NCBI GenBank assembly: GCA_012839815.1 | Contig: DUMQ01000001.1 | Coordinates: forward strand, 1 to 53,854 | Reading direction: 5' to 3' | DNA length: 53,854 nt | DNA from: Bacillota bacterium | GTDB taxonomy: Bacteria > Bacillota > SHA-98 > Ch115 > JABLXJ01 | Shown here: positions 3,497 through 6,534 of the stretch, in pieces | How positions within the stretch are numbered: the first letter of the stretch is position 1 | Layout: each line of letters begins with the position of its first letter | Position numbers and translations under genes: made by a program | The notes under the pieces: model-generated | What the model was told of the DNA's origin: nothing | The model's input: the letters and a program-made list of their open reading frames with translations, nothing else | Databases searched by the model: none

Positions 3497-4360
3497 ATGG
3501 GAAAAGTCCCCAGGAGTGGACGCCTCGTAGCCATAACCAAGGAACTGATTGATCACCCCCATTCCCTGATCTCTCTGGGCCGTTTTTCGGAGGCTTTCGA
3601 TGCCGCGAAGTCCAGCATTAGCGAGGATATAGCTATTATAAAGCGCGCTTTTGAGGACCTCCGACTGGGAAAGATCGAGACCGTGGCCGGAGCCGGAGGG
3701 GGTGTCAGGTTCATCCCTTATCTCTGGGAGAACGAGGTCGCCGAGGTAGTTCGCGGCTTTTGCGAAGAACTCGCGAGTCCCAAGAGGATTCTGCCGGGTG
3801 GGTTTGTCTACATGACAGACCTTTTGTTTTCGCCCTTCCATATGACGCGCGCGGGCCGCGTGTTCGCCAGCAAGTTTGCTGATGTGATGCCCGACTGCGT
3901 CCTGACGGTCGAGACGAAGGGAATACCCCCGGCCTTCATGACGGCGGCGGCTTTTAACGTCCCTCTCGCCATCGCCCGCCGCGACGGCCAGGTCACGGAG
4001 GGCCCGATAGTCAGCATTAATTACGTTTCGGGCTCAACGCGAAGGCTCCAGTCGATGTCGCTTGCCCGGCGCGCTATACCCGTGGGAGCAAGGGTACTTA
4101 TAATCGACGATTTCATGAAGGGCGGAGGCAGCGCAAAGGGGTTGACCGATCTCGTGCGGGAGTTCGGGGCGGAGACCGTCGGCATTGGTGTGCTCATAGC
4201 CACCGCCGAGCCCCGGGAGAAGCTAGTCTCGGATTTCGTGTCCCTCGTTGTGCTGGAGGGCGTGGATGAGGAGGCCAAGAGGGCAATAGTGAGGCCGAGC
4301 CAGTGGGTCCTCGACGGGGTTCGCGACGGGCAATCCAAAGATGGGCGGCCCAGAGAATAA
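3497..4360 (+). CDS. purR: Purine operon repressor PurR
   Basis: PurR is a DNA-binding repressor of purine synthesis and uptake genes that is released by PRPP. Residues from about 8 to 80 fit the PurR N-terminal winged helix (LVAITKELIDHPHSLISLGR, then SISEDIAIIKRAFE). The C-terminal part is a phosphoribosyltransferase-like domain with the PRPP loop VLIIDDFMKGGGSAKG near residues 199-214. ATG 3497 is chosen because GAGGGAGAG stands 6 bases before it and the family begins close to this point; an in-frame upstream ATG at 3455 would add 14 residues without resemblance. Length 287 residues is normal. Confidence 0.92.
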   Translation: MGKVPRSGRLVAITKELIDHPHSLISLGRFSEAFDAAKSSISEDIAIIKRAFEDLRLGKIETVAGAGGGVRFIPYLWENEVAEVVRGFCEELASPKRILPGGFVYMTDLLFSPFHMTRAGRVFASKFADVMPDCVLTVETKGIPPAFMTAAAFNVPLAIARRDGQVTEGPIVSINYVSGSTRRLQSMSLARRAIPVGARVLIIDDFMKGGGSAKGLTDLVREFGAETVGIGVLIATAEPREKLVSDFVSLVVLEGVDEEAKRAIVRPSQWVLDGVRDGQSKDGRPRE

Positions 4361-4392
4361 CGGCCCGGAAAATAAAGTCAGGATATTTTCTT

Positions 4393-4451
4393 CCATAAGC
4401 AGGATTTTAATCCGTTATATGGAATATATTCCATTAAAATCCTGCATATGG
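4393..4451. repeat. Nested palindromes over the spoVG promoter and ribosome binding site
   Basis: Outer arms 4393-4411 and 4433-4451 (CCATAAGCAGGATTTTAAT against CCATATGCAGGATTTTAAT when read on opposite strands) pair over 19 positions with one mismatch, 13 of them (4399-4411/4433-4445) perfect. Inside lies a perfect 16-bp palindrome ATGGAATATATTCCAT at 4419-4434. The left arm contains the SigH -35 element, the inner palindrome the -10 element, and the right arm reaches the first bases of the GGAGG of spoVG. Confidence 0.85.
4399..4425 (+). promoter_or_regulatory. SigH-type promoter of spoVG
   Basis: GCAGGATTT (4399-4407), 11 bases, ATGGAAT (4419-4425). This fits the SigH consensus RnAGGAWWW-N11/12-RnnGAAT completely. 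spoVG is a classic SigH gene in B. subtilis, and the -35 and -10 sequences resemble the B. subtilis spoVG promoter as I remember it. Transcription would begin near 4432, giving a leader of about 30-35 bases before the GTG at 4466. Confidence 0.9.
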
Positions 4452-4465
4452 AGGTGTATGTTCCG

Positions 4466-4738
4466 GTGAATATTACAGAGGTGCGCGTGAGGAAGCTAAG
4501 TGGAGAGGGGAAAACAAGAGGGGTCGCATCGATAGTCATTGACAATGCATTCGTGGTGAAGGATATACGGATTGTCGAAGGCCCGAAGGGCTTGTTCATT
4601 TCGATGCCGAGCAGGAGGTCGCCAGACGGCGAGTTCCGGGATGTTGCATATCCCATAACCTCGGAAGCCAGAGAGGAGATCTACGCCGCTATAATGAGGC
4701 GTTTCAGCGAAGGCAATGAGACACAGGCTATAAGGTAA
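4466..4738 (+). CDS. spoVG: Septation/regulatory protein SpoVG
   Basis: SpoVG is a small, conserved nucleic-acid-binding regulator involved in sporulation septation and cortex formation. The sequence MNITEVRVRKLSGEGKTRG, then ASIVIDNAFVVKDIRIVEG and LFISMPSRRSPDGEFRDVAYP, is diagnostic. Start choice: a longer frame opens at ATG 4448, but GGAGGTG at 4450-4456 lies inside it and stands 9 bases before GTG 4466, and proteins of the family begin with M-x-[IV]-T-[ED]-V; GTG 4466 is therefore preferred (90 residues). It has its own SigH-type promoter and so need not depend on purR transcription. Confidence 0.95.
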   Translation: MNITEVRVRKLSGEGKTRGVASIVIDNAFVVKDIRIVEGPKGLFISMPSRRSPDGEFRDVAYPITSEAREEIYAAIMRRFSEGNETQAIR

Positions 4739-4796: not shown

Positions 4797-6101
4797 ATGG
4801 AGGAAAATCAGGGAAAACAGGAAGTCGGTGTAACTGAAAATCTCGACTTTAACGTTGAGGATCTCCGCTCCATGCCAGAGAAGGAGCTTCGGGCCAGGTT
4901 GAGGCGTATCGCCGAGAGAGGCAACAGCCAAGCGACCGCACACAACGACGCACTCCGTTTTTTGAGTTCTCTCATAGACCGAGAGGATTTACAGGAGCCA
5001 CAGGCTCTGAGGATCGCCCTTGTAGCCACCGGGGCGCTTGGCTACCTGAAATCCGCCGCGAGCGCGGGCAAGCTGGCTGCTATCGCCAGCATCCCCGGCG
5101 ATAGCCCGGGCGCGAAGTCCCTGCGCAAGGAGGCCAAGAGAGCGCTTTTCCAGTTGAAATCATGGGGGATTGAGCCCGAGCCGCGGGCTGAGGGCGGGGA
5201 AGTCGCTCCTGCGCCTCCCCCGCCGGCCGGCGACCGGGAGAAGATCATACAGGCCGCGGCTACAGCCATTGATTGTGATGGGAATCGCATAGTGTCCATC
5301 TTTATGCGGGCGCTTCCGGGTAGGCCCCTGGCTATCGACTTTCTCATCAACGAAACCTCGGGTATAGCTGAGGGCTTTTTTGAGCCCACCAGCAAGCGAC
5401 GTTTTCAGAGGGAAGTTGATGCCGGGAAGGGAGGGGAGTTTCCTGTAGTCGAGATCGATCCTGAGTACTGCCTTTTCTTGGTGCAGGCTGCTGTCAAGAG
5501 AAATGAAGAGACGCAGACTAAGCTCCCGGACGCGTACAGGATCTGGAAGGAAGCCATAGGGGACCGGAAGTCCATTTATGATAAGCACCCGATATATTCA
5601 GAGCTTGATCCGGATGCAATCGCTCAAGATAAACATCTTTTGGCGGATGCGACCAGCCTGTTCTATTCATCGAGTATAGGGAAATTCAGGAAGGTATTTA
5701 CGGGCTGGGCCCTCGATCCCGAGATAGCCTGGAAATATCACCTGAAGGCTGGAGAGGCGTTGACGGGTGTCATCATTGTGGACCCTATAGCCCGCAATGA
5801 GCAGGTTGAGCGCATCCTGGCAGATGCCGCGGACGAGCTCTTTAAGAACGACGGCCGCCGGCGTTTTAAATACCGGCTTGAGGAAATGGCATACATGCTA
5901 TTACACTCCGAAGAGAGACACGAATATGAAGCTAAATGCTGCCTTGCGACGGCGCTGGCCATTGATAGTGGTAAACGCCTCCTTGATATTCCCTTTGTTC
6001 ACGAACTAATTTCTAAAAGTATCGGCGTCTTTAAGCGCGACGAGGATGAGGAGGATAACGGCGAGGATGATACGAGGCTCATTATAAATCCTTTTGAATA
6101 G
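4797..6101 (+). CDS. Unrecognised 434-residue protein, helical N-terminus, acidic tail
   Basis: I do not recognise this gene. Residues 1-125 are helical with an alternation resembling HEAT/ARM repeats (LRARLRRIAERG, LRIALVATGALGYL, LRKEAKRALFQLKSW). A proline-rich linker (APAPPPPAG, near 137-145) leads to a second, mixed domain of about 270 residues with acidic and aromatic patches, and the protein ends in a strongly acidic stretch (DEDEEDNGEDD). There is no signal peptide or membrane segment, so it is probably cytosolic. ATG 4797 follows AGGAAGGG by 6 bases. It lies 58 bases after spoVG and converges with the SASP gene, a sporulation neighbourhood, but that alone does not assign a function. 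Codon use matches its neighbours. Confidence 0.8.
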   Translation: MEENQGKQEVGVTENLDFNVEDLRSMPEKELRARLRRIAERGNSQATAHNDALRFLSSLIDREDLQEPQALRIALVATGALGYLKSAASAGKLAAIASIPGDSPGAKSLRKEAKRALFQLKSWGIEPEPRAEGGEVAPAPPPPAGDREKIIQAAATAIDCDGNRIVSIFMRALPGRPLAIDFLINETSGIAEGFFEPTSKRRFQREVDAGKGGEFPVVEIDPEYCLFLVQAAVKRNEETQTKLPDAYRIWKEAIGDRKSIYDKHPIYSELDPDAIAQDKHLLADATSLFYSSSIGKFRKVFTGWALDPEIAWKYHLKAGEALTGVIIVDPIARNEQVERILADAADELFKNDGRRRFKYRLEEMAYMLLHSEERHEYEAKCCLATALAIDSGKRLLDIPFVHELISKSIGVFKRDEDEEDNGEDDTRLIINPFE

Positions 6102-6136
6102 GGATCGATAAAGCGTCCATGCCGGACAAAGATGTG

Positions 6137-6170
6137 AAGGAGGTAAGGGCCCGAGGCCCCTTACCTCCTT
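6137..6170 (-). terminator. Hairpin at the 3' end of the SASP gene
   Basis: Arms 6137-6149 and 6158-6170 (AAGGAGGTAAGGG / CCCTTACCTCCTT) pair perfectly over 13 bp with an 8-base loop. The stop codon of the leftward SASP gene (complement of 6161-6163) lies in the stem. The leftward tail is only moderately T-rich (CTTCACATCTTTGT), so termination is likely but not textbook; the hairpin may also serve the converging gene that ends at 6101. Confidence 0.65.
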
Positions 6171-6355
6171 ATCTGGCTGGCCATCATTTCCTCGGCCTTT
6201 TGAATGAGACCCCGGACGATCAGGCCGGCCTCCCTGGTGGTGATTTCGCTGTAGTCGTAGGCGCCATTGTCTACCTTGATTTTATCAGCGAAACCGAGTT
6301 CGCGTGCGATCTCGTATTTCACCTCATCCGAGACAATGCTGCGATTCCGACCCAT
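6161..6355 (-). CDS. sspF: Small acid-soluble spore protein, alpha/beta type, SspF-like
   Basis: Alpha/beta SASPs coat forespore DNA, protect it from UV, heat and peroxide, and feed outgrowth after cleavage by the germination protease. The 64-residue product starts MGRNRSIVSDEVKYEIAREL, close to the B. subtilis SspF start (MGRRRGVMSDEFKYELAKDL, from memory), and continues with ITTREAGLIVRGLIQKAEEM. The K-Y-E-I-A site is where the germination protease would cut after Glu. GGGGGTGAG stands 5 bases before the ATG. B. subtilis sspF is next to ispE/purR/spoVG, so location supports the call. A SigG-like promoter was looked for upstream and none was convincing. Confidence 0.93.
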   Translation of the reverse strand: MGRNRSIVSDEVKYEIARELGFADKIKVDNGAYDYSEITTREAGLIVRGLIQKAEEMMASQIRR

Positions 6356-6426
6356 ACTTACTCACCCCCAATCTATTTTCCCCCGCAGGCAGACCCGCAT
6401 GTTAGGACGTTTTTGTTAGATTTGGC

Positions 6427-6454
6427 TAAAGCCTTCGCCCGGACGTGCCGATAT
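6427..6454 (+). promoter_or_regulatory. SigD (FliA)-type promoter before the chemotaxis genes
   Basis: TAAA (6427-6430), 16 bases, GCCGATAT (6447-6454). This matches the flagellar sigma consensus TAAA-N14/16-GCCGATAT at every position. It lies about 80 bases before the mcp start and faces it. The sigma factor that would read it is encoded in this window at 38578-39414, so the mcp-to-cheX block would be a late (class III) target. Confidence 0.9.
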
Positions 6455-6534
6455 AAATTAGGTAAGAGGGTGGACTCTGGCAGGTAACTTGGTGAATAGA
6501 TAATCAGGGAAGGTCAGGGAGGTGAGGGGGACGG

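Follow-up and report, generated by a model that had tools for sequence, protein, structure and literature searches.

A hairpin embedded in the SigH promoter of spoVG that may hide the ribosome-binding site in read-through RNA

In the window, the stretch of 53,854 nucleotides analysed here from an uncultured member of the Bacillota related to spore formers, purR and spoVG lie on one strand, and the SigH promoter of spoVG is written across an inverted repeat that reaches the ribosome-binding site of the gene. This raises the question of whether the repeat acts on DNA, as an operator over the promoter, or on RNA, as a hairpin that would decide which spoVG transcripts are translated, both of which had been put forward in an earlier note on this sequence.

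The spoVG promoter and its inverted repeats

The locus comprises the following features:
3497 to 4360, plus strand: purR, with PuR_N and Pribosyltran domains (Pfam PF09182, 1.1e-28; PF00156, 5.5e-15), its stop at 4360
4390 to 4411, plus strand: left arm CTTCCATAAGCAGGATTTTAAT, containing the anti-Shine-Dalgarno CTTCC and the SigH -35 element (repeat search; fold of a 161-nt RNA, pairing with 4433-4454)
4399 to 4407, plus strand: SigH -35 element GCAGGATTT, in the left arm (match to the conserved spoVG promoters of other Bacillota)
4419 to 4434, no strand: inner palindrome ATGGAATATATTCCAT, perfect over 16 bp, the apical stem of the hairpin (repeat search)
4421 to 4429, plus strand: SigH -10 element GGAATATAT, after a 13-base spacer (same basis as the -35 element)
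4432 to 4436, plus strand: predicted SigH start region, about 4434 (from the position of the -10 element)
4433 to 4454, plus strand: right arm ATTAAAATCCTGCATATGGAGG, with the Shine-Dalgarno sequence at its end (repeat search; fold of the 161-nt RNA)
4450 to 4456, plus strand: Shine-Dalgarno sequence of spoVG, GGAGGTG, closely 5' of the GTG at 4466
4466 to 4738, plus strand: spoVG, with a GTG start (Pfam SpoVG, PF04026, 2e-32)

A longer ATG open reading frame from 4448 was rejected as the start of spoVG in favour of the GTG at 4466, from which the protein begins with VNITEVRV... and matches Pfam SpoVG; homologues start with (M/V/L)NITEVRV, and relatives present GGGGGTG or AAGGTGGTG at the position of the Shine-Dalgarno sequence. 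Two open reading frames 3' of spoVG (4797-6101, 434 aa, and 6119-6487, 122 aa) have no Pfam match and, unlike in Bacillus, no recognisable glmU was seen behind spoVG in the window.

The promoter is a strict match to the sigma-H pattern RnAGGAwWW N11-12 RnnGAATww, the same promoter is found 5' of spoVG in most of the Bacillota examined, and the genome encodes sigma-H itself (TIGR02859, 373.7 bits, against an NCBIfam cut-off of 294.8). The transcription start at about 4434 was placed twelve bases past the G of GAAT. GCAGGATTT is also present on the reverse strand, but a divergent, minus-strand SigH promoter was rejected, no -10 element lying at the right distance. A genome-wide count gave 40 matches to AGGAWTT-N14-GAAT and 2 to the reversed control pattern. 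This strong over-representation of SigH-type promoters (G000, L113-L142), several of which seem, as judged by eye, to precede genes whose starts are regulator-like (e.g., L119, L122, L131, L132, L133 and L141), is hinting at a large sigma-H regulon. A second sigma-H-like gene (L144, G000 C43:15062-15640) scores 119.8 bits, below the cut-off, and a SigH-type promoter (L118, C43:16275-16299) lies about 0.6 kb from it on the same strand.

Direct reading and a repeat-finding program agree on the outer arms, CCATAAGCAGGATTTTAAT (4393-4411) and ATTAAAATCCTGCATATGG (4433-4451), which are complementary at 18 of 19 positions and which the program lengthens to 29 nt at 83% complementarity. The earlier description of 19-bp arms with one mismatch and a perfect inner 16-bp palindrome, with the SigH -35 and -10 elements across them, is thus confirmed. 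Two details of that description needed amendment. The palindromes had been called nested, and both exist, but they are not concentric, their dyad axes lying at 4422.0 (outer) and 4426.5 (inner), about 4.5 bp apart. The right arm, said to touch GGAGG, does make this contact but in fact overlaps the motif (4450-4454), and the left arm, taken as RNA, begins at 4390, since in the predicted fold CUUCCAUA (4390-4397) pairs with UAUGGAGG (4447-4454), so that the whole GGAGG is paired in the predicted 161-nt read-through RNA. A mobile-element or dispersed-repeat origin was rejected, as the region occurs only once in the genome.

Predicted folding and access to the ribosome-binding site

The segment that begins just 5' of the -35 element and ends at the start codon folds with a predicted -27.2 kcal/mol, against a mean of -11.9 for its shuffles (z -5.57). 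When about 0.44 Mb of this genome supplied the upstream regions used as controls, spoVG (z -5.44) was the most extreme of 272, the minimum among the other 271 genes being -5.26, and it again ranked first of 272 after correction for GC content (residual z -4.3). Of 30 SigH-like promoters in the genome, that of spoVG alone has such a structure, and the hairpin was rejected as a general property of SigH promoters, none being present in the other 29 examined. The SigH-start leader, taken alone, has no significant structure (z 0.07). The predicted cost of opening the Shine-Dalgarno sequence is 10.0 kcal/mol in the read-through RNA versus 4.4 in the SigH-start RNA; for 265 control genes with the start set artificially at -32, the opening-cost difference has a median of 0.06, and 1.5% of them reach 5.6.

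No site resembling an intrinsic terminator, and no U-run, was found between the purR stop and spoVG (4360-4466). In the one relative from the same genus (G001, L004), the purR stop lies about 8 bases 5' of the left arm, so that no terminator fits before it, and read-through from purR into spoVG is therefore to be expected. A Rho-type stop may follow purR, and we counted this against the hairpin reading.

We consider it probable, on the basis of these predictions, that the inverted repeat forms an anti-Shine-Dalgarno hairpin embedded in the promoter and that only SigH-started mRNA is well translated. Read-through RNA from the ispE-purR side would fold 4390-4411 onto 4433-4454 and hide the ribosome site of spoVG, and RNA from the SigH promoter would begin near 4434, lacking the left arm and leaving that site open. 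SpoVG would then be made mainly under active sigma-H, even with read-through transcription of spoVG in growth. Within this scheme we infer that transcription reads through from upstream, where exactly the SigH transcript starts and how translation is affected.

Relatives and rival explanations

The genome belongs to a small class, of which 17 genomes were available for comparison. The hairpin of L004 has a z of -5.69 despite 8-9 nt gained in its right arm, and its left arm is the same as in the window save for one compensated base, the pair at arm position 19 (numbering from 4393 minus 2) having changed from A-U to G-C on both sides. Three other right-side differences are transitions that give G-U pairs; a single transversion disrupts its pair, and no A-C mismatch arises. 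In both members of the genus, the fold of the sense strand is more stable than that of the antisense strand (-34.2 versus -27.2 and -31.0 versus -25.6).

A positive opening-cost difference, of 1.8-8.1 kcal/mol, was found in 14 of the 16 species of the class. Six species of a genus from another family (g4) share most of the stem base, with CTTCC/CTGCC-CATAAG on the left and CTTATGGAAGG on the right; their base, CTTCCATAAG with CTTATGGAAG, is much like that of the window, and the inner stem differs (GGGTTG/CAACCC in most species). Three of the six have z values of -3.2 to -3.7, and two (L027 and L028) pair weakly (z -0.45 and -0.74). RNAalifold gave changes on both sides in 5 of the 14 consensus pairs of g4. 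Covariation in the basal stem was rejected as proof, with almost no double changes, because the promoter fixes the left side of that stem. In a swap test, the own promoter beats nearly all foreign promoters of similar GC content at pairing with the leader in L003, L004, L016, L018, L022 and L025, and the test was positive in four g4 species; the greater stability of the sense strand fails in part of g4 (L018 and L022). Conservation or compensation of the arms, which the earlier note had put forward as a check, held in the genus and most of g4, with L027 and L028 weakening it.

Elsewhere in the class the arrangement varies. The ribosome site of genus g5 is mainly paired inside the SigH leader itself, and L006 and L008 gain nothing from loss of the upstream part. 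Unlike in the genus of the window, the leader of L006, L007, L009, L010 and L021 (g5) folds CCCGCTTTTCTAT with ATAGAAGGTGG, a fold that shuts the ribosome site of the SigH transcript. In family f2, of the same order (L005 and L012), a long leader hairpin starts a few bases from the SigH -10 element and ends in the Shine-Dalgarno sequence, and RNA from the predicted SigH start would again lack the anti-Shine-Dalgarno bases (differences of 5.0 and 8.1 kcal/mol); the stem of L005 is very long (-60 kcal/mol class). The structure at spoVG is real and non-random, and it is conserved as structure in the genus and partly in the class.

What this structure does can be read in several ways. A dimeric repressor, or AbrB, could bind the palindromes as a DNA operator over the SigH promoter and block transcription, as the earlier note had also suggested. 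AbrB represses spoVG in B. subtilis, four AbrB-type domains above the cut-off are encoded in the genome, and the perfect inner palindrome covers the -10 element. We nevertheless regard this as unlikely, given that neither the common dyad axis nor the conserved half-site spacing of a symmetrical operator was found: besides the offset of the two axes, the counterpart of the inner palindrome in L004 (ATGGAATATATATTCCAT) has its half-sites 2 bp further apart. Across the genome, the inner palindrome occurs exactly once, and the only further near matches are two sites with 2 mismatches, so that a regulon built on it was rejected; it is also absent from g4 and g5, and the structure tolerates G-U pairs, bulges and an insertion. 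An RNA hairpin is favoured over a symmetrical operator by the differing axes, the shifted half-sites, the unique inner palindrome and this tolerance, and the operator half of the earlier proposal found no support.

Other roles for the RNA structure also deserve weight. SpoVG might control its own synthesis by binding the hairpin, as RNA or as duplex DNA, which would be compatible with a hairpin switch: Listeria SpoVG binds RNA (PMC4959528), and binding of Borrelia SpoVG to its own DNA and mRNA is reported (PMC12472547, citing Savage 2018). Such autoregulation seems improbable here, since there is no known consensus SpoVG site (PMC12472547) and most Bacillota spoVG genes lack the hairpin. The hairpin stands 30 bases past the purR stop (about 8 in L004) and could serve mainly purR, stabilising the 3' end of its mRNA or offering an RNase III processing site; we hold this for very improbable, as the hairpin lacks a U-run for termination, its pairing extends exactly to the Shine-Dalgarno sequence in f1 and g4, and in g4 it follows the end of an apparent MobA-like gene instead of purR. 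The view that it has no function, being a product of chance or a relic of promoter sequence, could point to the loss of most pairing in L027 and L028, but the rank among the 272 upstream regions, the retention with compensation in the genus and the swap test leave it close to refuted. We thus retain the anti-Shine-Dalgarno hairpin as our reading. The RNA half of the earlier proposal, in which read-through RNA hides the site and SigH RNA lacks the left arm, appears to stand, on predictions from folding, accessibility with same-genome controls, a hairpin kept with changed sequence, sense stability in the genus and the lack of a terminator after purR.

The wider Bacillota, known systems and meaning

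A contig search with a single-protein query gave no match, and one with an alignment query gave matches. In 109-115 Bacillota spoVG upstream regions, pairing between promoter and leader exceeds that of shuffles (mean z about -0.9 to -1.0), with 27-28 regions below z -2 and none above 2; reverse-complemented promoters gave no excess of pairing with the leader (mean -0.01). Outside the class, the promoter pairs with the leader mildly more than a stretch further upstream does (mean z -0.63 versus -0.33; Wilcoxon p 0.036, thinned set), and the swap control is passed at 0.05 by 14 of 99 regions against an expectation of 5, a count that includes related genomes and is not a clean probability. The excess outside the class being small, a hairpin device for all Bacillota was rejected as a finding.

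Individual cases of pairing were found with the anti-Shine-Dalgarno bases in different parts of the promoter: the -35 region pairs with the Shine-Dalgarno sequence in L061 and L015, and in L215 the pairing is between GGAATCTCCTTATCA, from the -10 region, and TGATGAGGAGGTTTCC. It is possible, though we hold it as doubtful, that concealment of the spoVG ribosome site by its own SigH promoter is a recurrent, independently evolved Bacillota device, with the anti-Shine-Dalgarno arm at the -35 element, in the spacer or just past the -10 element according to lineage, and with the choice of sigma-H gating translation as well as transcription.

Two further groups were observed. In Sulfobacillus-like genomes (L099, L100, L102, L103, L111 and L195), GAATCC and CTTGT, at or just past the -35 element, are complementary to the Shine-Dalgarno regions GGATTC and ACAAGGAGG. 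The spoVG leaders of L213, L220, L222, L224 and L225 are very short, and a C-run straight after the -10 GAA(T/C), between the -10 element and the predicted start, faces a G-run Shine-Dalgarno sequence.

The type of mechanism proposed has precedents. The ribosome site of T4 gene e is hidden in the long early transcripts, and translatable RNA comes from late promoters placed within the 5' strand of the hairpin, with a 100-fold effect (PMC3014915), and the leader hairpin of I-TevI has the same arrangement (PMC2988022). For B. subtilis sigG (spoIIIG), a hairpin of 20+ bp was proposed to keep RNA that reads through from the spoIIG operon from being translated, and it cannot form in RNA from the sigG promoter (Masuda 1988, as recounted in PMC5942855). 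spoVG resembles T4 gene e and I-TevI in that the ribosome site is predicted to be paired in upstream-started RNA and the own promoter lies in the 5' arm, RNA from the predicted own start lacking the hairpin. Those are phage genes, served by a phage late sigma factor and backed by experimental proof, whereas spoVG is chromosomal, uses sigma-H and is argued here from computation alone. sigG is, like spoVG, a sporulation gene with a read-through hairpin missing from own-promoter RNA, but gene, sigma factor and sequence differ, and we claim no homology. Unlike in T4 gene e and sigG, the -35 hexamer of spoVG is itself part of the arm. In fold-back inhibition of IS10, RNA reading in from outside the element folds over the start of the transposase; unlike spoVG, IS10 uses the terminal sequence of the element, guards against transposition and has no sigma-factor switch. 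We found no earlier account of a spoVG hairpin or of read-through into spoVG in the literature searched, most subscription papers lying outside its scope. The type of mechanism would then be one already known from T4 gene e and sigG, and the spoVG case appears to be new.

If the hairpin acts as proposed, spoVG, which encodes a conserved RNA- and DNA-binding regulator, would be locked against translation in read-through RNA, and only sigma-H transcripts would open it. This would explain how a regulator just behind a terminator-less housekeeping operon stays off in growth, and the logic known from T4 and sigG would be a more general bacterial answer to leaky operon ends.
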